A stretch of 64,000 bases of DNA from Acidimicrobiales bacterium (GTDB lineage Bacteria; Actinomycetota; Acidimicrobiia; Acidimicrobiales; Aldehydirespiratoraceae), in contig JAVJSI010000001.1 in the NCBI GenBank assembly GCA_040219515.1, positions 1 to 64,000 of the forward strand, written 5' to 3'. A program made the translations under genes and the position numbers. The notes beneath the pieces were generated by a model. It ran no database searches and was not told the DNA's origin. It was given only the letters and a program-made list of their open reading frames with translations. Within the stretch, counting starts at the first letter, position 1; each line of letters opens with the position of its first letter. Below, piece after piece: positions 8,242 through 39,015 of the stretch.

Positions 8242-10068
8242 ATGGATCTCTCCGTCGCCGTCGCTCCCTCGGACTGCACCGTCGTGCTGGTGCACGTCGG
8301 TGTGGGCGACGAGGTCTCGGCCGGCACCGTGCTCGCGATCGTCGAGGTCATGAAGATCGAGCAGCCGGTCGTGGCCGCCGTCGACGGCAGGGTCGCGACG
8401 GTCGATGTCGTGGTCGGCGAGGTCGTCACGGCCGGCCGCGCCGTGGTCTCGATCGCCCCCGGCCCGATCTCGGCGGTGGGCCCCGAGTCGCTCGACCAAC
8501 AACCGGCTGCCGAGCACCGCGATCCGGTCGAACGCGGCGACTTGGTCGAACTCCGCGAGCGGAAAGCTGCGTTCGCCGACGCTGCTCGTCCCGACGCCGT
8601 CGCCAAGGTCCACGCCCGGGGTCGTCGCACGGCTCGCGAGAACGTGGCCGACCTCGTCGATGGCGACAGCTTCGAGGAGTACGGGTCGCTCATGTACGCC
8701 GCGCAGACCGCGCGGAGGAGCCGCGAGGATCTGATCGCGTCGACGCCCGGCGACGGCATCGTCGGCGGGATCGGGCGGGTCAACGGCGACCGGTTCGCCG
8801 ACGAACAGAGCCGGTGCGCCGTGATGTCCTACGACTACACGGTGCTGGCCGGAACCCAGGGCTACCGGGGCCATCAGAAGAAGGACCGGCTGTTCGAGAT
8901 CTGTGAGCGGCTGCGGCTGCCACTGGTGTTGTTCGCCGAGGGCGGCGGCGGACGTCCGGGCGACACCGACGTGCCCGTCATCGCCGGACTCAACGTGCCG
9001 TCGTTCGCGGCCATGGCCCGGCTGAACGGCCTCGCCCCCACCGTCGCGATCGTGTCGGGACGTTGTTTCGCGGGCAATGCGGCGCTGGCCGGGATGTGCG
9101 ACGTCATCATCGCCACCGCCGACGCCAACCTCGGAATGGCCGGCCCCGCCATGATCGAGGGCGGCGGACTCGGGGTCGTCGCACCCGAGGACATCGGACC
9201 GGTCGACGTGCAGACGGCCAACGGCGTCATCGACGTGTTGGTCGACGACGACGCGGCGGCCGTGGCGGCGGCCAAGCACTACCTCTCGTTCTTCCAGGGT
9301 CCGGTCGACACCTGGGAGTGCGCCGACCAGACACTTCTGCGCGAGGTCGTGCCCGAACGACGCAAGCAGGCCTACGACGTGCGCGAAGTGGTCGAACTGC
9401 TCGTCGACCGCGACTCGTCCCTCGAGCTACGGCCGTCGTTCGGTCCGGGGATGATCACCACACTCGCTCGCGTCGAAGGTCGACCGATCGGCATCCTCGC
9501 CAACAATCCGCTGCATCTCGGTGGCGCCATCGACGGCGCCGGCGCCGACAAGGCCGCTCGCTTCATGCAACTCTGTGACACCTTCGGCCTGCCCCTGCTG
9601 TTCCTCTGCGACACCCCCGGGTTCATGGTCGGACCCGAGGCCGAGCAACAGGCCCAGGTCCGCCGGTTCGGACACCTCTTCGTGGTCGGGGCCAGGCTCA
9701 CGGTGCCGTTCGGCACGGTCGTGTTGCGCAAGGCGGTCGGTCTCGGCGCCCAGGCGATGGCCGGCGGCAGTTTCCACTCGCCGCTGATGACGGTGGCGTG
9801 GCCCACCGGCGAGGTGAGCGGCATGGGCATCGAGGGCGCCGTCACCCTGGGGGGCCGCCGAGAGCTCGAGGCCATCGACGACCCCACGGCGCGAGCCGCG
9901 GCCCACGCCGAGCGGGTCGAGGCGATGTACGAGCGCTCGAAGGCGATCAATGCCGCCGCACACCACGAACTCGATGACGTGATCGACCCGGCCGAGACCC
10001 GCCGCCGGGTGGTGAACCTGCTGCGCAGCGCACCGAACACGATCCCAGGGGGACGGCGCCCGCGTTAG
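8242..10068 (+). CDS. biotin-carrier/carboxyltransferase fusion (acyl-CoA carboxylase type)
   Basis: 608 residues. Residues 1-75 form a biotinyl carrier domain with EVMKIEQP at 35-42 (K38 the predicted biotin site; EVMK replaces the usual EAMK/AMKM). Residues about 95-600 form an acyl-CoA carboxyltransferase of the AccD/PccB/MccB kind, with oxyanion-type stretches (SGRCFAGNAALAG, CDTPGFMVG, GAQAMAGGS). It would transfer CO2 from carboxybiotin to an acyl-CoA. The carrier placed in front of the CT domain and separate from any biotin carboxylase is unusual, since carriers are normally on the alpha subunit. No biotin carboxylase gene is in the window, so one must come from elsewhere. The acyl substrate cannot be inferred. 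Confidence 0.87.
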   Translation: MDLSVAVAPSDCTVVLVHVGVGDEVSAGTVLAIVEVMKIEQPVVAAVDGRVATVDVVVGEVVTAGRAVVSIAPGPISAVGPESLDQQPAAEHRDPVERGDLVELRERKAAFADAARPDAVAKVHARGRRTARENVADLVDGDSFEEYGSLMYAAQTARRSREDLIASTPGDGIVGGIGRVNGDRFADEQSRCAVMSYDYTVLAGTQGYRGHQKKDRLFEICERLRLPLVLFAEGGGGRPGDTDVPVIAGLNVPSFAAMARLNGLAPTVAIVSGRCFAGNAALAGMCDVIIATADANLGMAGPAMIEGGGLGVVAPEDIGPVDVQTANGVIDVLVDDDAAAVAAAKHYLSFFQGPVDTWECADQTLLREVVPERRKQAYDVREVVELLVDRDSSLELRPSFGPGMITTLARVEGRPIGILANNPLHLGGAIDGAGADKAARFMQLCDTFGLPLLFLCDTPGFMVGPEAEQQAQVRRFGHLFVVGARLTVPFGTVVLRKAVGLGAQAMAGGSFHSPLMTVAWPTGEVSGMGIEGAVTLGGRRELEAIDDPTARAAAHAERVEAMYERSKAINAAAHHELDDVIDPAETRRRVVNLLRSAPNTIPGGRRPR

Positions 10069-12928: not shown

Positions 12929-13930
12929 TCAGCCCCGGCGGCGACGGTTGCGACGGGGCGCGCCGCCCGCGTTGGCCCGCACCGGCGCCTCGGCGACCTC
13001 GACATCGGGCAGCGGCATCGTGCCGTCGAGCACCCCACGGATGGCGGCGACATGGGCCGGGGAGTTGCCGCAGCAACCACCGATGATCTGGATGCCGGCG
13101 GCCCGCATGCGGTGGGCGTGGGCACCCATGATCTCGGGAGAGCCGCTGTAGGCCAGTTCGGCGCCGTGCCACTCGGGGATGCCGGCGTTGGCCTTCGAGA
13201 TGACGGGCACGTGGGTGGCGGCTCGGATCTCGGCGAGCGCGGCTTCGGTCTCGGGCAGGTTGTTGCCACAGTTGGCGCCGATGGCCGCCACGCCGAGTTC
13301 GGTCAGCCGTTGGGCGGCCAGCGTGCCGGTGACGCCCATCATGGTGCGACCGGCGGTGTCGAAGCTGAAGGTGACGGTGACGGGCAGGTCACTCGCGTCG
13401 CGGGCGCCGGCCACGGCGGCCTCGACCTCTTCGAGAGAGCTCATGGTCTCGATCCAGAGCAGGTCGGCCCCGCCCTTGGTCAGCCCTTCGGCCTGCGCAG
13501 CGAACGCGGATCGGGCATCGGTCGGGTCGAGCTCGCCGAGGGGCACGATGAGTTCGCCGGACGGGCCCATCGAACCGGCGACCAGTACACGGCGCTCGGC
13601 CTCGTCGGCGGCGACTCGGGCGTTGCGGGCGGCCGCCTCGTTGATCTCGACGACGCGATCGTCGAGTGAGTGCAGGGCGAGACGGAACTTCGTGCCGCCG
13701 AAACTGTTGGTGAGAATGATGTCGGACCCGGCCTCGACATAGGCCCGATGCACCGCCTGGACGGCGTCGGCCATGTCGAGGTTCATGCGCTCGGGGGCAT
13801 CGCCCGGAGGGAGGCCCCGGGCGAACAGCTCCGTGCCCATCGCGCCGTCGATGACCAGATGGCCGCGCTCGGCGATCAGTTCGTCGAGCACGGTTCGGCC
13901 CGTCACGGAAAGGTCAGAGGGGGTCGTCAC
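12929..13930 (-). CDS. homocysteine/betaine-type S-methyltransferase
   Basis: 333 residues from the GTG at 13928-13930. A TIM-barrel methyltransferase of the Pfam S-methyl_trans family (BHMT/MmuM/MetH N-terminal domain): DGAMGTELFARG near the start, NSFGGTKFRL, and the three zinc-ligand cysteines in GANCGNN and GGCCGNSP. It would move a methyl group from a donor such as betaine or S-methylmethionine to homocysteine, making methionine. The length and motifs fit the stand-alone enzyme; no cobalamin domain is attached. The C-terminus is basic (RRNRRRRG). It is convergent with the DinB-like gene and divergent from the PhyH dioxygenase. Confidence 0.85.
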   Translation of the reverse strand: MTTPSDLSVTGRTVLDELIAERGHLVIDGAMGTELFARGLPPGDAPERMNLDMADAVQAVHRAYVEAGSDIILTNSFGGTKFRLALHSLDDRVVEINEAAARNARVAADEAERRVLVAGSMGPSGELIVPLGELDPTDARSAFAAQAEGLTKGGADLLWIETMSSLEEVEAAVAGARDASDLPVTVTFSFDTAGRTMMGVTGTLAAQRLTELGVAAIGANCGNNLPETEAALAEIRAATHVPVISKANAGIPEWHGAELAYSGSPEIMGAHAHRMRAAGIQIIGGCCGNSPAHVAAIRGVLDGTMPLPDVEVAEAPVRANAGGAPRRNRRRRG

Positions 13931-14011
13931 GACTGTGCAGCGTAGCGCTGCTCCCGACCGGCGACATTGGTCGTCTGGCCCACTCTCACCGATCGTGCGA
14001 GAGTGTCGCCC

Positions 14012-14836
14012 GTGTTGCGGCATCCCTGGAACACCGACTTTGTGTGGCGTCGGCCCCAAATCAGTCCCCGGTCGCTCAGCACCGCGCAGCTCGACGCGTT
14101 CCACACCGACGGATGTCTCGTCGTCGAGGACCTGATCGACGAGGAATCACTGGTCGCCCTGCGGAGCGAACTCGACGAGATCGAGGCGGGCGTCGATGCG
14201 TTCCTGAAGACGATGCCCGATGAACGCCTCTTCATCGCCGAGTCGGGCGCCATCACGTTCTCGCCCCACGCCGTGCTGACCTCGGCGGCGGCACGGGCGG
14301 TCAGCACCCATCCGGCGATCGTGGGCCTGTGCCACGACCTTCTCGGACCTGACGCCCGTCTGTACTGGGATCAGCTCGTCTACAAGAAGCCGGACCGGCC
14401 CCGTGAGTTCCCGTGGCATCAGGACAACGGCTACACGTTCGTGGAGCCGCAGCAGTACCTGACGGTCTGGCTCGCGCTCACCGATGCGACCCTCGACAAC
14501 GGCTGCCCCTGGGTGGTGCCCGGCCTCCACCTCGGCGGCACGCTCGCTCACGAGTACGTCGACCCGTTGGGCCATCAGTGCTTCGCCGACCATCCCGACG
14601 CGGTCGCGACGCCGGTGCGGGCCGGCGGCGCCGTCGTCTTCTCCTCGCTGACACCGCATCGCACCGGGCCCAACACCTCGGCCGGTGTGCGCAAGGCCTA
14701 CATCCTCCAGTACGCACCCGACGGTGCCGTCAAGCTCGACGGTGATCCCACGACCGGCGCTGATCCACAGCGGGTGCGCCAGGACGATCCCGATCGCCAG
14801 TACCTCGTGGTCCGACGAGGGGTGTCGGCTAGGTGA
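14012..14836 (+). CDS. phytanoyl-CoA dioxygenase (PhyH) family protein
   Basis: 274 residues from the GTG at 14012 (an in-frame GTG at 14003 is possible). A non-haem Fe(II)/2-oxoglutarate oxygenase with facial triad H136-x-D138 in FPWHQDNGYTF and H216 in TPHRTGPN, plus a conserved Trp/Asn region (LDNGCPWVVPGLHLGG). Family members hydroxylate acyl-CoAs or small metabolites. Its last codons overlap the GTG of the fused Liv permease (GTGA), so it is translationally coupled to the transport genes. I infer that it acts on, or upstream of, the imported compound. Confidence 0.87.
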   Translation: MLRHPWNTDFVWRRPQISPRSLSTAQLDAFHTDGCLVVEDLIDEESLVALRSELDEIEAGVDAFLKTMPDERLFIAESGAITFSPHAVLTSAAARAVSTHPAIVGLCHDLLGPDARLYWDQLVYKKPDRPREFPWHQDNGYTFVEPQQYLTVWLALTDATLDNGCPWVVPGLHLGGTLAHEYVDPLGHQCFADHPDAVATPVRAGGAVVFSSLTPHRTGPNTSAGVRKAYILQYAPDGAVKLDGDPTTGADPQRVRQDDPDRQYLVVRRGVSAR

Positions 14837-16959
14837 CCAGCGCGGCGACCGACGCCGCGCGTCGGCGGCTCGGTCCGCTGGCGACCACGCTCGGCCCGGC
14901 CGCGGCGGTCCTTGTCGCGCAGACGCTGCTGTTCCCCACCGACGTCGGTTTCCTGCTCCAGGGCACCACGATCGGTCTCCTGACCGCGCTGATCGCGGTC
15001 GGCATGGCGCTCATCTATCGCGCCAATCGGGTGCTCAACTTCAGCCAGGCCGACCTCGGCTACATCCCGGGCCTGCTCGGCGTGATGCTCGTGGCCGTCT
15101 CCGGGCTCAACTACTTCCTCGGGTTCTTCGCCGGACTCGCGGTGGCGATCGTCGGCGGGGCGCTCGTCGAACTCGTCGTGATCCGTCGCTTCTTCCGGGC
15201 CGCGCGCCTGATCCTCACGGTGGTCACCCTCGGCCTCACGCAGGTCCTCGTCTTCCTCGCGCTCTGGATGGCCGGCCTCTGGGATGCCGAGTCCCGTTCA
15301 CAGCGGGTCAACTTCCCGGTCGAGATCCGTTTCGAGGTCGAGTCGATCATCTTTCGCGAAGACGACGTCGTCACCTGGGTGGTCGCGCCCCTGGCGATGG
15401 CCGCGGTCGCCCTCTTCCTGCGCGGCACGGTGGTCGGCACCGCGATCAGGGGGGCGGCGGAGCGAGCCGACCTCGCCGGACTCCTCGGTGTACCCGTTCG
15501 GCGGCTCCACACCATCGTCTGGTCCATCGCGACCACACTCGCGTTCATCGCCATCTGGCTGCGGGCCGGGATCATCGGATTGCCGGTCGGCGCCGCCCTC
15601 TCCTTCAGTGTTCTCCTCCGGGCCTTGGCCGCGCTGACCCTCGGCAATCTCACCAACCTTCCGGCCATCGCCACCAGTGCCGTCGCGCTGGGCGTGCTCG
15701 AGACCAGCATGGTCGCCAACAACCGCAGTCCCGCCGAGAGCGGCGCCGTTCTCGCGGGCGTGATCATCCTCGCGCTCCTGATCCGCTCGCTCCTCGCCCG
15801 CTCCGACAGTCGGGCCGACGCCGACGAGACCTCCACGTGGCAGGCCGCCGAGGAGATCCGCGACGTGCCACCGGAGCTGCGGCGGGTGCCCGAGGTGATG
15901 GCGACGCGCGCCGTGCTCGCCCTCATCCTCCTCGGTGGGGTCCTCTTGCTGCCCCTCTTCCTGGGCACCGCCGACCTCATCAAGGCCACCGCGGTCGCCG
16001 TGTTCGGCATCATCGGCGTGTCGGTGATCATCCTCACCGGATGGGCCGGCCAGGTCTCACTCGGCCAGATGGCGTTCGTCGCGGTGGGCGCCGCCGTGAC
16101 CGCCAAGCTCAGCCACGAATGGAACGTCGACCTGATCCTCGCCCTGCTCGCCTCGGCCGCCGTGGGGGCCGCGGTCGCCGTCGTGGTCGGGCTGCCGGCG
16201 CTACGCCAACGCGGGCTCTTCCTCGCCGTCACGTCGCTAGGATTCTCGTTGGCGACCACCAGCTACTTCCTCAACGACGAGTTCTGGGTCGGCTCGTGGG
16301 TCCACGACAACCCGTTCCGGCGGCTCCCGCTTTTCGGCCGCGTCGACATCGATTCGCCCACCCGCATGTACTACGTGGCCGTGGTCGGGCTCGCGTTCGT
16401 GATGGTCACCGTGCGCGGGGTACGCCGGACACGGACCGGCCGAGTGCTGCTGGCGTTGCGAGAGAACGAGGCGGCCGCCCAGACGTTCGGGATCAGTCCC
16501 TTGCGGGCGAAGCTGACCGGGTTCGCACTCTCGGGGGCGGTCGCTGCCTTCGCCGGTGGTCTTTTCGCCTACACCCTCAAGATCTACACCGCGTCGAGCT
16601 TCGAGCCCAACGACAGCATCGAGGTGTTCGTGATGGGCGTGATCGGCGGACTGGGCAGTCTCTCGGGCGGGCTGATCGGCGCGATCTACCTCCAGGGCCT
16701 TGGCTGGTTCCTTCCCGGCGAATGGGTCTTCTTCGCCACCGGTGTCGGTGTGTTGGTCGTGCTCCTCGTCATCCCCTCGGGTATCGGCGGACTCTTCTTC
16801 TGGCTACGGGACCAATGGCTCCGCTCCATCGCCAAACAGCGCAACATCATCGTGCCGAGCCTGCTGGCCGACGTCGCCCCGACGAAGGCCGAGGAAGCCG
16901 CCGTCCTCGACGCGGTCGGCGCCACCTCGCCCGAGAACGACACGACGGGACCCCCATGA
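14833..16959 (+). CDS. fused LivH-LivM branched-chain-type ABC transporter permease
   Basis: 708 residues, about twice a single permease. Residues 1-310 are LivH-like (GLLTALIAVGMALIYRANRVLNFSQADL is the LivH start of the family; AAERADLAGLLGVPVRRLH is the EAA-type coupling loop). Residues about 350-650 are LivM-like (IILTGWAGQVSLGQMAFVAVG, LRENEAAAQTFGISPLRAKL, GGLGSLSGGLIGA). Both halves form the membrane channel of HAAT-family importers for amino acids, urea, amides or aromatic acids. The stop overlaps the ATG of the MFS-ABC-ABC gene (ATGA). With the fused ATPases and the downstream binding protein it makes a complete importer. Confidence 0.9.
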   Translation: MTSAATDAARRRLGPLATTLGPAAAVLVAQTLLFPTDVGFLLQGTTIGLLTALIAVGMALIYRANRVLNFSQADLGYIPGLLGVMLVAVSGLNYFLGFFAGLAVAIVGGALVELVVIRRFFRAARLILTVVTLGLTQVLVFLALWMAGLWDAESRSQRVNFPVEIRFEVESIIFREDDVVTWVVAPLAMAAVALFLRGTVVGTAIRGAAERADLAGLLGVPVRRLHTIVWSIATTLAFIAIWLRAGIIGLPVGAALSFSVLLRALAALTLGNLTNLPAIATSAVALGVLETSMVANNRSPAESGAVLAGVIILALLIRSLLARSDSRADADETSTWQAAEEIRDVPPELRRVPEVMATRAVLALILLGGVLLLPLFLGTADLIKATAVAVFGIIGVSVIILTGWAGQVSLGQMAFVAVGAAVTAKLSHEWNVDLILALLASAAVGAAVAVVVGLPALRQRGLFLAVTSLGFSLATTSYFLNDEFWVGSWVHDNPFRRLPLFGRVDIDSPTRMYYVAVVGLAFVMVTVRGVRRTRTGRVLLALRENEAAAQTFGISPLRAKLTGFALSGAVAAFAGGLFAYTLKIYTASSFEPNDSIEVFVMGVIGGLGSLSGGLIGAIYLQGLGWFLPGEWVFFATGVGVLVVLLVIPSGIGGLFFWLRDQWLRSIAKQRNIIVPSLLADVAPTKAEEAAVLDAVGATSPENDTTGPP

Positions 16960-19946
16960 GAAACCGTCTCCGCCCGGCCGCGCACGCCATTGCCCACCCG
17001 GTCCAGTCACTCGACTCGATCACGGGCGGTGGGCCGATCTACCCGCTGCTCATCCTGTTCGGCCTCAACGCGGTCGACGAACTCGACCGGACGGCATTCA
17101 GCGTCCTACTGCCCGAGATCCGGGAGGAATTCGGGCTCAACCTGACCGGGGTTCTCGGCATCGTCGCCGCCGTCGGCGCCGCCGCCCTCGTCCTTCAGGT
17201 ACCGATCGCCCAGCTCGCCGACCGGGGCTCACGCACCCGGCTCACGCTCCTCGGTGCCGCCGTCTGGGCGATCTTCTCGTTCGTCACCGGCCTCGCCTGG
17301 GTCCTCTGGGCCCTGGCCGTCGCCCGGGCCGGATCCGGCATCGGCAAGGCGGTGGTCGATCCGACGCACAACTCCCTGATCGCCGACTACTACGCACCCG
17401 ACCACCGCAACAAGGTCTTCGCGTTCCACCGGTCGGCCAACGTCCTCGGCCAGATCGTCGGTCCCATCGTCGCCGGACTGATCGCCTTCCAGTTCGGGTG
17501 GCGTTGGCCGTTCATCATCTTCGCCGTTCCCACCCTGATCCTGGTGGTCGTCGGCCTCCGCATGAAGGAACCCGTCCGTGGCGCCCACGAGCGACGGGCG
17601 ATGGGCGCGAGCGAGGATGCCATCGCCACCGAGGAGGAGGCGCCCTCCTACGCCGAGGCGTGGCGGATGATGTGGAAGATCGAGAGCCTGAAGCGCATCT
17701 GGTTCGCCCTCCCCTTCCTGGCCGCCTCGCTGATCGGGTTCGGCACCTTCGCCTCGCTGCTCTACGACGAGGTCTTCGGCTTCGACGAGCGGGCCCGCGG
17801 CGTGCTCGCGGCGGCCGTGGAGCCGGCCGGGCTGATCGGTCTCGTCATCGGCGCCCGCATCGGCACCCGGCTGATGGCTCGCGACCCGGGACTGGTGCTG
17901 CGGTTCCTCGCCGTCACCGCCTTCTTCAACGCCGGCGTCATGGTGATCTTCGCCAGCGCCCCGGTCTGGTGGGTGGCCACCGGCGCTGCGGCCGTCGCCT
18001 CGCTGGTGAACGCCATGTTCGTCCCGACGATCTTCGCGGTGCTGTCGATGGCCATTCCGCCCCGGGCCCGCGCCCTCGGCTTCTCGATCGGATCACTCTG
18101 GATCCTTCCGGGCCTCGTCGTCCTCCCCCTGATCGGGGCGATCGGCGATTCGTGGGGCATCCGCTGGGGCATGGGGATGATGGCGCCCGTCTACCTCATC
18201 GGCGGCCTGGTCATCTCCACGGCGGGCATCGTGATCAAGGACGACATCGCCCAGGTCTGGCAGACGGCCGCCGCCCGGGCCGAGGTCGCCACCGAGCGGC
18301 GAGCGGGACGCAGCAAGCTGCTGCTCGTGCGCGGGCTCAACGTGTCGTACGGCGACGTGCAGATCCTCTTCGACATCGACTTCGAGGTGGAGGAGGGTGA
18401 GATCGTCGCACTCCTCGGCACGAACGGCGCCGGCAAGTCCACGCTCCTGAAGTCGATCTCCGGACTGGTCGAGGCCGACCGTGGCGCCATCATGTTCGAC
18501 GGTCGCGAGATGACCTTCGCTCCGCCCAACGAAGTGGCCCAACGGGGGGTGATCCAGGTCGCGGGCGGGCAGGGTGTCTTCCCGTCGCTCACCGTGCAGG
18601 AGAACCTCGACGTCGCCGGCTGGCTGCACCGACGAGACCGCGAAGGACTGATCGCCGAGTACGAGCGGGTCTACGGGATGTTCCCGGCGCTCGACCAGCG
18701 GCGCGAGGAACCGGCGGCGAATCTCTCGGGTGGGCAGCAGCAGATGCTGGCGATCGGCATGGCCCTGCTCGGACGGCCCCGTCTGCTGATGGTCGACGAG
18801 CTGTCGCTCGGCCTCGCGCCCGTGATCGTCGAACAACTCCTTCCCGTCCTGCGGCAACTGGCCGACGAGGGCGTGACCATCATCCTGGTCGACCAGTCGG
18901 TCAACGTGGCGCTGACGATCGCCGAGACCGCCTACTTCATGGAGAAGGGCGAGATCCGCTTCCACGGGCCCACGGCCGAGCTCCTCGACCGGCCCGACGT
19001 GCTCCGGTCGGTGTTCCTCGAAGGTGCCGGTGCGGCCGTCGACCCTGCGGCCCACGCGGCGCTGTCGAAGGTCCGGCCCGCGAAGGTCGTGCAACCGGAG
19101 GTCGAGCGCGCGGAAGTCGAGCGAGCGACCTTCGACGCCGACGAACCCCCCATCCTCGAGACCGTCGACCTGATGAAACGGTTTGGCGGTATCCGGGCGG
19201 TCGACGACGTCGTGCTCCGGGTGCGACCGGGAGAGATCATCGGTCTCATCGGGCCGAACGGTGCAGGCAAGACGACCCTCTTCGACGTGGTCAGTGGCTT
19301 CACCCCGGCCGACGGCGGACGTGTGTTCCTCGACGGCCGCGACATCACCGGGCTGGCGCCCTTCCAGCGGGCCCGTCTGGGTCTCGGTCGATCGTTCCAG
19401 GACGCCCGCCTGTTCCCGTCGCTGACCGTGGCGGAGGCCATGGCGGTGGCCCTCGAACAGGAGATCGAGGTCCGCAGCACGCTCGCCGCGATGTTCTACC
19501 TCCCCAACGTCCACGATGCCGAGGAGAAGGTCAGGCTGCGCGTCGACGACCTGATCGAGATCCTCGGGCTCGGCGCCTTCCGGCACAAGTTCCTGCGGGA
19601 ACTGTCGACGGGCTCACGCCGCATCGTCGACCTCGCGTGCGTCGTGGCCCACGCGCCGCGGGTGGTGCTGCTCGACGAACCCTCCAGCGGCATCGCGCAA
19701 CGCGAGACCGAGGCCCTCGCCCCTGTTCTCACCCGCATCCGCGACGATCTCGGCGCCGCGATGCTCGTGATCGAGCACGACATGCCGCTCGTCTCCGCCG
19801 TCGCCGACCGCATCATCGCGCTCGACCAGGGGGCCGTCATCGCCGACGGCACGGCCGAGCAGGTGCTCAATCATCCCGATGTAGTGGCGTCATACCTCGG
19901 AACGAACGAGGATGTCATCGCCCGTTCGGGGGAACGGCGCAGTTGA
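16956..19946 (+). CDS. MFS transporter fused to two Liv-type ABC ATPases
   Basis: 996 residues in one frame. Residues 1-430 are an MFS transporter with about twelve membrane helices (early motif AQLADRGSRTRLTLLG, the loop 2-3 signature). Residues 445-690 are a LivF-like ATPase with Walker A GTNGAGKST (from 488), LSGGQQQ (about 589) and LMVDELSLG. Residues about 725-990 are a LivG-like ATPase with GPNGAGKTT (about 766), LLDEPSSG and an altered signature LSTGSRR (about 882) in place of LSxGQ. An Ala/Val/Glu-rich linker separates the ATPases. The ATG at 16956 overlaps the permease stop, and no alternative start or stop divides it. The ATPases should power the fused LivH-LivM permease; the role of the MFS module is unknown. 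Confidence 0.9.
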   Translation: MRNRLRPAAHAIAHPVQSLDSITGGGPIYPLLILFGLNAVDELDRTAFSVLLPEIREEFGLNLTGVLGIVAAVGAAALVLQVPIAQLADRGSRTRLTLLGAAVWAIFSFVTGLAWVLWALAVARAGSGIGKAVVDPTHNSLIADYYAPDHRNKVFAFHRSANVLGQIVGPIVAGLIAFQFGWRWPFIIFAVPTLILVVVGLRMKEPVRGAHERRAMGASEDAIATEEEAPSYAEAWRMMWKIESLKRIWFALPFLAASLIGFGTFASLLYDEVFGFDERARGVLAAAVEPAGLIGLVIGARIGTRLMARDPGLVLRFLAVTAFFNAGVMVIFASAPVWWVATGAAAVASLVNAMFVPTIFAVLSMAIPPRARALGFSIGSLWILPGLVVLPLIGAIGDSWGIRWGMGMMAPVYLIGGLVISTAGIVIKDDIAQVWQTAAARAEVATERRAGRSKLLLVRGLNVSYGDVQILFDIDFEVEEGEIVALLGTNGAGKSTLLKSISGLVEADRGAIMFDGREMTFAPPNEVAQRGVIQVAGGQGVFPSLTVQENLDVAGWLHRRDREGLIAEYERVYGMFPALDQRREEPAANLSGGQQQMLAIGMALLGRPRLLMVDELSLGLAPVIVEQLLPVLRQLADEGVTIILVDQSVNVALTIAETAYFMEKGEIRFHGPTAELLDRPDVLRSVFLEGAGAAVDPAAHAALSKVRPAKVVQPEVERAEVERATFDADEPPILETVDLMKRFGGIRAVDDVVLRVRPGEIIGLIGPNGAGKTTLFDVVSGFTPADGGRVFLDGRDITGLAPFQRARLGLGRSFQDARLFPSLTVAEAMAVALEQEIEVRSTLAAMFYLPNVHDAEEKVRLRVDDLIEILGLGAFRHKFLRELSTGSRRIVDLACVVAHAPRVVLLDEPSSGIAQRETEALAPVLTRIRDDLGAAMLVIEHDMPLVSAVADRIIALDQGAVIADGTAEQVLNHPDVVASYLGTNEDVIARSGERRS

Positions 19947-19974: not shown

Positions 19975-21777
19975 ATGACCGACGGTGAACCAGCCGATCT
20001 CAGCCGACAGCTCCGGCGGTGGGGGCCACTCGGCGCCATCGTCGCGATCGTTCTCATCGTGGTCGTCGTGGTCGTCGCCTCGGGTGGTGACGACGACGGC
20101 GACGACGCCCGGACCGACCTCGACACGACCACCTCGGAACCGACGACCGACACCGATCCGGACACCGACACCACCACCGATCCCGACGACGGGACCACCA
20201 CCTCGAGCGACACGGGCGAGGATTCCGCCGATGACGTCATGGCCGACGGCCGGGTGTACTGGACCGAGGCCGACGCCGCCGGCGTGACCGGCGACTTCGA
20301 CTGGGGCGAGAAGTGCGACACCGATCTCGGCACCTACGCCTATCCCGACTTCTTCGCCGGTGAGTGCGTGGTCCCGTGGACCGGTGACAACGGCGGCGCC
20401 ACCGAGACCGGCGTCACCGCCGACACGATCACGATCGTCGTCTACTCCGCGGCCGAGGTCGATCCCGTACTCGACTACATCACCGGACCGATCAGCAACG
20501 ACGACACACCGGATCAGGTCTTCGAGACCCATGTCGGACTCGCCGAGTTCTACGGCGCGTACTTCGAGACCTACGGCCGTACGGTCGAACTGGTCCAGTA
20601 CAAGGCGACCGGCACCAGCGACGACGAGGTCGCGGCCATCGCCGACGCCGAGACCATCGCTCGTGATCTCCAGCCGTTCATGGTGTGGAGCGCCCCCACC
20701 CTCCAGGTCGAGGTGTTCGGCGAAACGCTCGCCGCCAACGGGATCATGTGCAACTGCAACGGCGGGGCATCGGCACAGGACAACTACCCCTACCTCCACG
20801 TCGTCACGAAGTCACCCGAGCAGAGTCGGATCCTGCTGGCCGAGTACATCGGCAAGCGACTGGCCGGGCGCAACGCGATCCACAGTGGGGACTTCACCGA
20901 GCAGGAGCGGACGTTCGGCTATCTCTACCTCGAGACCAGCGACGCGTCGACCCAGGTGGCCGAGGACTTCCGCGACGCGCTGGCCGATGACTATGGCGTC
21001 ACTCTCGATCCGCTGATCCCCTACGAGCTCGACCCGTTGACGCTCCAGGAGCAGGCCACGACCATCATCGCCTCGCTGAAGAGCGCCGGAGTCACGAGCA
21101 TCGTGTTCGCCGGTGACCCGATCGCACCGCGCGACTTCACACTGGCCGCGACCGAGCAGGAGTACTTCCCAGAGTGGATCCTGTCGGGTACGGCACTGGT
21201 CGACACGTCGGTGTTCGGCCGCACCTACGACCAGGAGCAATGGGCCCACGCATTCGGCATGAGCAACACGTCGGTGCCCATCGCCCGCGAGGTGGGTGGC
21301 AACTACTTCCTCTACGACTGGTTCCACGGAGAAGCGCCGCCCGCCGGGGACACGATCGGGATCCAGTGGCAGGCGTCGCTCACGTACGCCCTGCTGCAAG
21401 GCGTCGGGCCCGACCTCACCCACGAGAACTTCGCCGACGCGATGCTGAACGCGCCGCCGACGCGGCGGGGGGCGATCACCGCACCGTCGATCTCGTTCGG
21501 CAGCGACAAGGGGCTCTGGCCCGACGAGATCCTCCCCGACCTCAACGGCATCGACGACGTCTCGGAGGTGTGGTGGGATCCCGAAACCGTGGGCGTCGAC
21601 GAACTCGACCGGGAGGGCCCCGGCATCTACCAGTACGTCGACGGCGGCACCCGGTACCTGCCGGGAGCGTGGCCCGACACCGATCCGAACGTGTTCGTCC
21701 CGGAAGGAGCCGTCGATCGGTACGTGACGCGACCGGCCTCGGAGGATCCGCCCGACTATCCGAGCCCCGCCGGCTGA
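19975..21777 (+). CDS. HAAT-type ABC substrate-binding protein, membrane-anchored
   Basis: 600 residues from the ATG at 19975, with a GGGGGAA ribosome site. An N-terminal hydrophobic anchor (GAIVAIVLIVVVVVVASGG) lacks a lipobox cysteine, so it is probably tethered by an uncleaved helix. It is followed by an Asp/Thr-rich linker (about 45-85) and a periplasmic-binding-protein type I fold (from about 145, ETGVTADTITIVVYSAAE). It delivers the substrate to the permease and ATPase encoded just upstream. Extra cysteines (CNCNGG near 260) are unusual for this class. Ligand unknown; the type I fold of this group binds branched-chain amino acids, amides or carboxylates. Confidence 0.85.
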   Translation: MTDGEPADLSRQLRRWGPLGAIVAIVLIVVVVVVASGGDDDGDDARTDLDTTTSEPTTDTDPDTDTTTDPDDGTTTSSDTGEDSADDVMADGRVYWTEADAAGVTGDFDWGEKCDTDLGTYAYPDFFAGECVVPWTGDNGGATETGVTADTITIVVYSAAEVDPVLDYITGPISNDDTPDQVFETHVGLAEFYGAYFETYGRTVELVQYKATGTSDDEVAAIADAETIARDLQPFMVWSAPTLQVEVFGETLAANGIMCNCNGGASAQDNYPYLHVVTKSPEQSRILLAEYIGKRLAGRNAIHSGDFTEQERTFGYLYLETSDASTQVAEDFRDALADDYGVTLDPLIPYELDPLTLQEQATTIIASLKSAGVTSIVFAGDPIAPRDFTLAATEQEYFPEWILSGTALVDTSVFGRTYDQEQWAHAFGMSNTSVPIAREVGGNYFLYDWFHGEAPPAGDTIGIQWQASLTYALLQGVGPDLTHENFADAMLNAPPTRRGAITAPSISFGSDKGLWPDEILPDLNGIDDVSEVWWDPETVGVDELDREGPGIYQYVDGGTRYLPGAWPDTDPNVFVPEGAVDRYVTRPASEDPPDYPSPAG

Positions 21778-37025: not shown

Positions 37026-37406
37026 ATGCTGGTTGACTTGGGCATGCCCGAGAACCCCCAACAGGCGATCTTCCGACGACTGAACCGGGTCGTGAAGCCG
37101 CTCGTCAAGGCCGGTCTGGGCTCACCGCTGCCGATCGGGCTCGGTGCGGTGGTGCTCGAGAGTACGGGCCGGGTGAGCGGCAAGCCCCGCGAGGTACCGG
37201 TGCTCGGCTTCCGGCTGGGCGGTCGTGTGCTCGTCTCGACCGTGCGGGGCAACTCCCAGTGGGTCAAGAACCTCGAGGCCGACGACCGAGCCGCCGTCTG
37301 GTACGGCGGCCGCCGCCACGACGCCACGGCCACGGTCCGGCGAGGACCGCTCAACGTCGTGACGCTCAGCCAGCAGGGTCCGGGCGAGCAGGGTCCGGGA
37401 GCGTGA
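37026..37406 (+). CDS. Ddn/nitroreductase-family F420-binding protein
   Basis: 126 residues (a start at the ATG at 37044 is also possible). It has the small beta-barrel of the Ddn family: [16 protein letters not shown] and [34 protein letters not shown]. These actinobacterial enzymes bind F420 and reduce quinones or nitro compounds. Gene order (right after the enoyl-CoA hydratase stop) suggests cotranscription. The last 41 bases overlap the 3' end of the convergent ABC-F gene. Confidence 0.82.
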
Positions 37407-39015
37407 TGGTGCGATCGAGCGCCACGTTCTCGAGCAACCGCTCGTCGTGCGACACGAGCAGCAGGGTTCCGCCGTAGTGCTCGAGGGCGGATTCGAGTTG
37501 TTCGATGGCAGGGAGGTCGAGATGGTTCGTGGGCTCGTCGAGGACCAGGAGATTGACACCCTGCGCCTGGAACATCGCCAGCGTGGCCCGCGTGCGTTCG
37601 CCGGGCGACAACGACTCGGCCGGTCGCTGCATCGCGTCGTGGTCGAGGCCGAACTTCGCCATCACCGACCGGGCGTCCTGATCGAGCAACGACGTGGAGC
37701 CGGTGATCACGTCGAGCACGCTCCGATCGCCCCGGGAGAACTCGTCGCGCCGCTGCCCGAGTTCACCGACGACGACGTTCGGTCCGAGCCGGCACGAACC
37801 GTCCGCCGCCGACCGTCGGCCCAGCAGCACGTCGATGAGTGAACTCTTGCCCGACCCGTTGGGGCCGGCGAGCCCGACGCGTTCGCCGTAGCGGATCTCG
37901 TCGTCGAGCGGCCCGAGCACGAATGTCCCGCGGCGGATCACGAGACCGTCGAACGTCGCCACCACCGTGGCACTGCGCGGCGCCTCGTTCACCGTGAAGC
38001 GGAGGTCCCACCCTTCCCACGGCTTGTCGACCGTTTCGAGGCGGTCGATGGCCTGTTCGGTGGCCCGGGCCTTGCCCGCCAGCTTCTCGGTCTGCGCGAT
38101 CTGGGCGCTGCGCCGGATCTTGTCCCCGTCGGCGGGACGCTTCCGGGCGCGACTGGCCCCACGATCGACCCACTCCCGTTGCTGCTGGGCGCGCTGACGC
38201 AGCCGGTCCCGCTGGTTGACATAGGTCGCGTAGCGGTCCTGTTCGTGAGCGGCGGCGGTGGCTCGCTCGTCGAGGTACGCCTGCCAACCGCCCTCGAACA
38301 GCGTCCCGCTGCGGGCATGCTCGTCGAGCTCCAACACGCTGCGGGCATGGCGTTCGAGGAACCCACGATCGTGGGAGACGACCACCAGCCCGCCGGGATT
38401 GCGCTCGATCCAACCATCGAGCACCGCCAGTCCGTTGGTGTCGAGATTGTTGGTCGGTTCGTCGAGGAGTGTCACATCGGCGCTGGTCAGCAGCAATGCG
38501 GCCAGCCCCACACGGCTCACCTGCCCACCCGAGAGATGTGCGGTGGGCAGGTCCAGCGCACTCGGCGCGAGACCGAGCTCGGCGGCGGCCTCGTCCACGC
38601 GCGCGTCGAAACCGGCGACGTCGGCCTCGAGCCAGTCGCCGAGCGCGCGGTCGTAGCGATCCGCAGCACCCTCCGCGCCGGCGGCCAGCTCGGCGGTGGC
38701 CTCGTCGAACTCCTCCTGGAGCCCGGCGATCCCGCACATGCGGGCGAGCTCGTCGCGAACGACGACCGTCGAGGAGCGTTCAGGCTCCTGGCGGACGAGT
38801 CGCACCTTCAGCCCGTCGGGTTGGCGGCGAACCTCTCCGGCCTCGGGCGCCAGTTCCCCAGCGAGCAGGTGGAGCAGCGTGGTCTTTCCCACGCCGTTCG
38901 GACCGGCCACACACAGACGCGTGCGCGGGCCGATCGACAGGTCGATGTCGCGGAGCACCGGCTGGTCTCTCCGACTGAACGACACCCGGTCGGCGACCAG
39001 CGCGAAGGAACTCAC
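37366..39015 (-). CDS. ABC-F family ATPase
   Basis: 549 residues with two ABC domains and no membrane segments. Walker [10 protein letters not shown] and GPNGSGKSS; signatures LSGGQ and [15 protein letters not shown] and LDEPTNHLD as the Walker B/D-loop pairs. The central linker (about 235-320) is Arg/Gln/Lys-rich, including QREWVDRG and [21 protein letters not shown] proteins bind the ribosomal E site and remodel translation, some giving antibiotic resistance; this linker length fits either a housekeeping or a resistance type. Its ATG is followed upstream (on the minus strand) by about 40 bases before the next gene. Confidence 0.9.

Follow-up and report, generated by a model that had tools for sequence, protein, structure and literature searches.

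What does an entire MFS permease do in one polypeptide with the two ATPases of a Liv-type ABC importer? The question is raised by a gene in the 64,000-nucleotide stretch of actinobacterial DNA analysed here (the window), and it concerns primary (ATP-driven) and secondary (gradient-driven) transporters, which are usually seen as separate classes. A preliminary description had proposed that the permease and both ATPases are read as a single 996-residue protein from a frame devoid of internal stops, and translation of positions 16956-19946 bore this out, since it comprises 996 codons and its sole stop is terminal. A Pfam scan recognised MFS_1 in the protein (best over residues 35-340, E 1e-43), ABC_tran in two stretches (E 2e-58), and the BCA_ABC_TP_C tail at residues 961-984. 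Inspection of the motifs agreed that Walker A and B are intact in both ATPases: the LivF-type domain carries GTNGAGKST as Walker A, LSGGQ, DE as Walker B and Gln at the H-loop position, and the LivG-type domain carries GPNGAGKTT, the signature LSTGS, DE and His at the respective positions. The ATGA by which the gene had been said to overlap the preceding LivH-LivM frame (14833-16959) is likewise present in the sequence, and the stop of the PhyH gene overlaps the LivH-LivM start by GTGA (Table 1), although the real start of the PhyH gene may lie later than 13967.

The LivH-LivM fusion contains two BPD_transp_2 (PF02653) stretches (Pfam, E 3e-47), and the NCBIfam LivH and LivM models match it, both below their cut-offs. 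The product of the downstream binding-protein gene had no Pfam match, whereas Peripla_BP_6 was matched by 9 of 26 aligned homologues (best E 2.9e-15). Scans for promoters and for terminators returned none of either, and a repeat search returned imperfect, high-GC matches only. Elsewhere in the window, a homocysteine S-methyltransferase gene (12929-14104, minus strand) faces the PhyH gene head to head; with a score of 347.7, its product passes the cut-off that NCBIfam sets for its betaine-homocysteine methyltransferase model (338), and locus L044 has a neighbour from the same Pfam family. The window also encodes a 608-residue protein (8242-10068, plus strand) with a biotin carrier domain (14-71) and a carboxyltransferase domain (123-595) in one chain, and, on the minus strand, a 549-residue frame (37366-39015) in which two ABC matches of the LivG kind may mark another double-ATPase protein.

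Table 1. Features of the operon, with positions numbered along the window
Feature	Position	Strand	Basis or remark
PhyH-family (Fe/2-oxoglutarate dioxygenase-like) gene	13967..14836	+	Pfam PF05721 E 3e-35; opens the overlapping run
LivH-LivM fused permease, 708 aa, both ABC importer transmembrane subunits	14833..16959	+	Pfam
MFS-LivF-LivG fusion, 996 aa	16956..19946	+	begins at ATGA within the LivH-LivM stop
MFS permease domain, residues 25-425	17028..18230	+	Pfam MFS_1, AlphaFold model, Spns1 fold match
Junction helix, residues 427-449, MFS-LivF spacing nearly fixed	18234..18302	+	AlphaFold model; joint-length comparison
LivF-type ATPase, residues 454-690	18315..19025	+	Pfam, NCBIfam, motifs; 1ji0 Z 33.2
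LivF-LivG variable linker, residues 691-731	19026..19148	+	low model confidence; variable length
LivG-type ATPase, residues 732-992	19149..19931	+	Pfam, NCBIfam, motifs
Binding-protein gene, 600 aa, N-terminal hydrophobic stretch	19975..21777	+	relatives match Peripla_BP_6

An obvious concern is that adjacent genes were misread as one through annotation or assembly, and an artefact joining genes had been named beforehand as the case against the fusion. We therefore rely on the recurrence of the frame elsewhere. A scan of named genomes yielded 130 matching loci, of which 80 were kept and classed by domain scan. MFS, LivF and LivG lie in one frame in 36 of the 80 loci, four of these frames being cut at a contig end (L066, L067, L069 and L104). 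In two loci (L046 and L074) the frame is cut short with LivG still incomplete, one (L113) holds a broken copy, six have an MFS-LivF fusion together with a LivH-LivM-LivG fusion, nine have LivH-LivM-LivF-LivG as a single chain without MFS, and the remaining 26 either contain LivF-LivG but no MFS or are too truncated or damaged to classify. When a sample of the class was searched and the two best candidates per genome were scored, 93 of 296 genomes matched at E 1e-85 or better; in 46 of the 296 one alignment ran over the whole length (from residue 42 or earlier to residue 928 or later), and in five further genomes the two halves fell in open frames of identical length, at least 1034 codons. A sample of the phylum gave matches in 32 of 396 genomes, 12 of them outside the class, with five of these 12 spanning the whole protein. 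Among the window genome and 20 relatives, a set in which architecture was read from fetched loci only, 59 MFS matches reached E 1e-25 or better, of which 53 lay in open frames of at least 638 codons. The L113 copy is broken and some copies, for example L046 and L074, end at contig ends, as an artefact might lead one to expect, but the frame is uninterrupted in dozens of assemblies and the joint is conserved. The same three-domain frame in many independent assemblies contradicts the artefact, to which we give next to no credence.

Two single records deserve a comment of their own. In L113 (VAXF01000139.1) the MFS frame is split in two and the binding protein is fused to LivH-LivM, which reflects decay or sequencing error. 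L106 (CAMBEL010000001.1), titled Bifidobacterium breve, encodes a LivF-LivG 61% identical to that of the window together with this family's binding protein; the family otherwise occurs here in records of other actinobacteria, and L106 is perhaps a mislabelled MAG.

The loci fall into four layouts. Type A, that of the window, is [LivH-LivM][MFS-LivF-LivG], with the binding protein (SBP) downstream or, in other loci, upstream; type B is [MFS-LivF][LivH-LivM-LivG]; and types C, [SBP][LivH-LivM][LivF-LivG], and D, [SBP][LivH-LivM-LivF-LivG], are without MFS. Both MFS-bearing layouts place the MFS directly ahead of LivF. The window genome itself contains three additional operons in which an MFS-LivF fusion adjoins a LivH-LivM-LivG fusion, and type-B relatives occur in the named strains Parafrankia colletiae Cc1.17 and Embleya sp. 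NBC_00888; the type-A loci from the scan of named genomes all come from records with metagenome-assembly titles. The search for the same architecture and for its co-occurrence with LivH-LivM fusions, which the preliminary description had recommended, thus found both to be widespread across the loci compared. The family is one of actinobacterial Liv-type importers with shuffled fusions; as all searches were seeded with the window protein, MFS fusions to other partners could go unseen.

How the permease is attached was assessed from joint lengths, corrected for model ends, in 77 distinct type-A and 20 true type-B joints. The spacing between MFS and LivF in type A is 19 residues in 67 of 77 joints, 20 in six, 21 in one and 10, that is, 9 residues shorter than usual, in three; in type B it is 20 residues in seven joints and 21 in 13. 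Three further copies tabulated with type B (L016, L021 and L074) are cut type-A copies, and the spacing is 19 in all three. In contrast, the type-A linker between LivF and LivG ranges from 14 to 115 residues. For the window protein, the AlphaFold model (from 35 sequences; mean pLDDT 82.4, pTM 0.65) contains twelve long helices, which we read as transmembrane and of which the eleventh is in two pieces, followed by a helix at the joint (427-449, block pLDDT 84-92) and by LivF strand 1 at residue 454; residues 688-727, in the LivF-LivG linker, are at pLDDT below 50. In the type-B model (Parafrankia colletiae; 13 sequences, mean pLDDT 77.7, pTM 0.68) a single helix, 444-493, extends from the last membrane helix across the joint at block pLDDT 69-86, with only 69-75 in part of the joint, and the LivF strand starts at 501. 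The models thus predict a helical MFS-LivF joint, and its near-constancy in dozens of related genomes suggests that the MFS and the ABC importer are one machine.

We then considered whether the MFS part looks functional, using 104 distinct sequences (74 type A, 5 cut type A, 21 type B and 4 standalone, the last class excluding L175 and L176). D144 and R372 are present in all 104, R281 and W182 each in 103, and D89 and R93 together in 103; all six residues are found in each of the four standalone sequences. D89 and R93 belong to what we take to be motif A, with its acidic and its basic position in loop 2-3, and R124, in all 35 rows of alignment A1, presumably to motif B. Position 124 is Asn in at least 5 of the 21 type-B sequences, the TM1 residues D44 and R45 also differ in type B, and a motif-C-like G165..G169-P170..G174 is usual in type A and variable. 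The MFS part is under selection: dN/dS in three close pairs was 0.06-0.19 for MFS, 0.04-0.11 for LivF and 0.10-0.16 for LivG. It is also the least conserved part, mean pairwise identity among 32 type-A proteins being 46% for MFS, 67% for LivF and 60% for LivG.

A homologue with the MFS apart from the ATPases had been raised as an argument against the fusion. In part this case exists: two genomes have standalone MFS genes (L124, L126 and L128 in one, L125 in the other) that stop 4 to 41 residues past the end of the MFS match, but the tree nests them within the fused family. The sequence beyond L124 is visible up to a contig end 136 bases away, and a type-D operon, which lacks the MFS, has its binding-protein gene 1.4 kb from L126. 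Two other candidates, G262 (64% identity) and G220 (53%), reach contig ends and were not counted as standalone, and the MFS genes near the MFS-less operons L084 and L115 were rejected as relatives on account of partial matches and a very long branch (3.0). The MFS tree, with six other MFS from the same genome as outgroup, was built without L084, L115, L074 and L021 and with the frame-broken L029 entered as type B; it places type A, type B and the standalone genes on one side of a branch with support 92, unites type B in a clade of its own (100) and sets the standalone genes among type A. The LivF tree was built without L016, L021, L046 and L074, with the cut type-A copy L177 labelled C and with a few long-branch ATPases as outgroup; it places C and D within A with modest support and B separately (94). 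Gain and loss of the MFS would both fit these trees.

Across the four types, with cut type-A copies counted, LivF holds Gln at the H-loop position in 133 of 133 sequences; in LivG this position is His in 121 of 121, and most have the signature LSTG. If LivF and LivG pair, one ATP site (LivG Walker motifs with the LivF signature) would be canonical and the other degenerate. This inequality is also found in the MFS-less layouts and is thus not a product of the fusion.

Leads to the substrate were sought in the binding protein and in neighbouring genes. Compared with the PDB by sequence and by profile, the binding protein had no convincing solved relative. In a scan of 88 mechanically called neighbouring frames (87 of 174 type-A neighbours and one extra window gene), PhyH was the most frequent family (9 of 88) and the remainder were diverse. 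A close PhyH (above 470 bits) stands beside 6 of 42 type-A operons including that of the window, upstream in three and downstream in three, and also beside the contig-split type-A copy L175; it was found beside none of nine type-B operons and none of 24 operons assigned to the MFS-less group (L113, counted there, is in fact a broken type-A copy), absences that are weak because the upstream room ranged from 1 base to 14.8 kb. Type A is also carried by assemblies of Candidatus Microthrix, a genus known for lipid storage. Together with the Spns- and EfpA-like matches of the MFS, the Microthrix assemblies and the PhyH neighbours make lipid-like substrates conceivable for the system, as a lead only. 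Separately, plasmids of Sulfitobacter and Pseudosulfitobacter encode relatives of LivF and LivG (38% identity), and AtuA (acyclic terpene utilization) is annotated under the match in 10 of 14 listed rows (H2-H15), which may point to isoprenoid substrates there.

Overall, we favour a reading, to which we assign a probability of about 0.58, in which LivHM, MFS-LivF-LivG and the binding protein form one complex and the MFS gives the same or a related compound a further, gradient-driven way across the membrane. LivH-LivM would be the ABC pore, powered by LivF and LivG as its ATPase pair, with substrate brought by the binding protein encoded downstream. The MFS, of Spinster/DgoT-like fold, would be held one-to-one on LivF through the helix of near-fixed length that follows its last transmembrane helix, and would work as a secondary transporter, with the importer's own compound or a metabolically related one, perhaps amphipathic, as its cargo; LivHM would provide high-affinity ATP-driven uptake, and the MFS gradient-coupled low-affinity uptake, exchange or product export. 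This companion-carrier reading is favoured by the near-fixed joint as opposed to the variable linker, the near-invariant MFS residues, the low dN/dS and the Spns1 fold, by the wide occurrence of the three-domain frame with the MFS just before LivF in both fused layouts, and by the precedent of CamM and CamABCD, where, in the excerpt of the source consulted (PMC8399759), an MFS and an ABC importer serve one catabolic route. Against it count the MFS-less type-C and type-D operons, in which the importer can do without the MFS, as well as the greatest divergence falling in the MFS, the TM1 and motif-B residues that are altered in part of type B, the three shorter joints and a window binding protein that Pfam itself leaves unrecognised. 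The earlier proposal that the MFS imports a second substrate survives in so far as the evidence speaks best for a second transport route, although transport itself is what we infer. The data demonstrate the architecture, its conservation, the length of the joint and the selection acting on the MFS; that the MFS is a transporter, that the parts form one complex, and the class of substrate and direction of transport are inferred, and the identity of the substrate is a guess.

The preliminary description had also offered the idea that the MFS docks the ATPases at the membrane. An inert MFS that merely holds them beside LivHM would be compatible with the fusion of the ATPases behind it and with its greater variability, yet types C and D do without an anchor of this sort, and the near-invariant charged residues of the MFS, which persist in the standalone copies, and its low dN/dS also argue against inertness. 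Furthermore, permeases of the LivHM kind, as is generally known, already bind their ATPases by themselves. With relatives that lack the MFS, docking is unlikely as its role. We regard as similarly improbable the third idea of that description, a hybrid pump, in which the ATP-driven closing of the LivF-LivG dimer pushes on the C-terminal half of the MFS through the junction helix and so renders the MFS ATP-gated or ATP-driven. The near-fixed joint of 19 or 20-21 residues, the predicted helices (continuous at 444-493 in type B, 427-449 in type A) and the choice of LivF as the partner in both A and B would suit such gearing, and one ATPase pair would then drive or gate two different pores, that of LivHM and that of the MFS. 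A fixed joint may, however, be a mere spacer, 3 of the 77 joints are 9 residues shorter, the type-B joint is in part at block pLDDT 69-75, and the literature matches listed hold no precedent.

The MFS could also bind substrate in order to sense it and set the activity of LivF, in the manner of a transceptor or of trans-inhibition, and its fixed distance from one ATPase and the seemingly unequal ATP sites would accord with this; but the sites are equally unequal in the MFS-less types C and D, and standalone homologues carry the same conserved residues, so that we hold a regulatory receptor to be doubtful as well. Under the companion-carrier reading or its rivals, one primary and one secondary transporter are locked at a near-fixed distance in two gene layouts, which makes cooperation of both engines directly testable.

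Comparison with known systems places the MFS part within the MFS superfamily by its MFS_1 domain, the 12 helices of the model and the motif A residues. Its best fold matches are to Spinster (SPNS) proteins and span 386-404 residues (Spns1 Z 40.6 over 404 residues, Spns2 Z 39.7 to 33.6), although identity is just 19-20% and the C-terminal helix of the window protein, unlike theirs, runs on into the ATPases. With VAChT at Z 38.8 and DgoT at Z 35.9, the Spinster assignment is not unique, and weak PDB sequence matches are to EfpA (E 4e-13, the best), Spns1 (E 8e-10) and DgoT (E 6e-5), with EmrB also near. LivF matches Thermotoga 1ji0 by fold (Z 33.2). Among the top Foldseek matches are the D chains of Mycobacterium tuberculosis DppABCD and OppABCD (8wdb_D and 8j5q_D), which have two ATPases per chain and, unlike the window protein, no MFS part.

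MFS fusions to other partners are already known, while a fusion of MFS to ABC ATPases is not described in the literature we could search: none was found among the literature matches listed, most subscription journals and TCDB being outside their scope, and the excerpts of PMC11004387 and PMC11130926 contain nothing on one. LplT is itself an MFS carrier. According to the available part of PMC11416262, LplT-Aas is a membrane carrier in complex with a cytosolic enzyme, the two lie in one frame in some bacteria and the fused proteins are uncharacterised; its partner is an acyltransferase, unlike the ABC ATPases of the window. Sensor kinase-MFS fusions (TC 2.A.1.34) join an MFS to a signalling domain, as stated in the portion of PMC3924187 consulted, and, unlike the window protein, are without an ABC part. 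A likeness by role is seen in Rhodococcus jostii RHA1, where CamM (MFS) and CamABCD (ABC) import related bile-acid metabolites, by the description in the excerpt of PMC8399759, from separate genes rather than a fusion. The urea importer UrtABCDE was rejected as an identity for the locus, the permeases being far under cut-off (UrtC 82 bits against 296, UrtB 53 against 250) and the UrtD and UrtE cut-offs being exceeded by whole-protein scores, summed over two ATPase domains. With the Liv/HAAT importers in general (LivFGHMJ, UrtABCDE) the window shares the LivH/LivM permeases, seen as two BPD_transp_2 domains, and the LivF- and LivG-type ATPases with the BCA tail on LivG; it may also share their kind of binding protein, as the family of its own matches Peripla_BP_6 in part. 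It differs from them in that LivH is fused to LivM, LivF is fused to LivG, and an entire MFS permease stands ahead of LivF.
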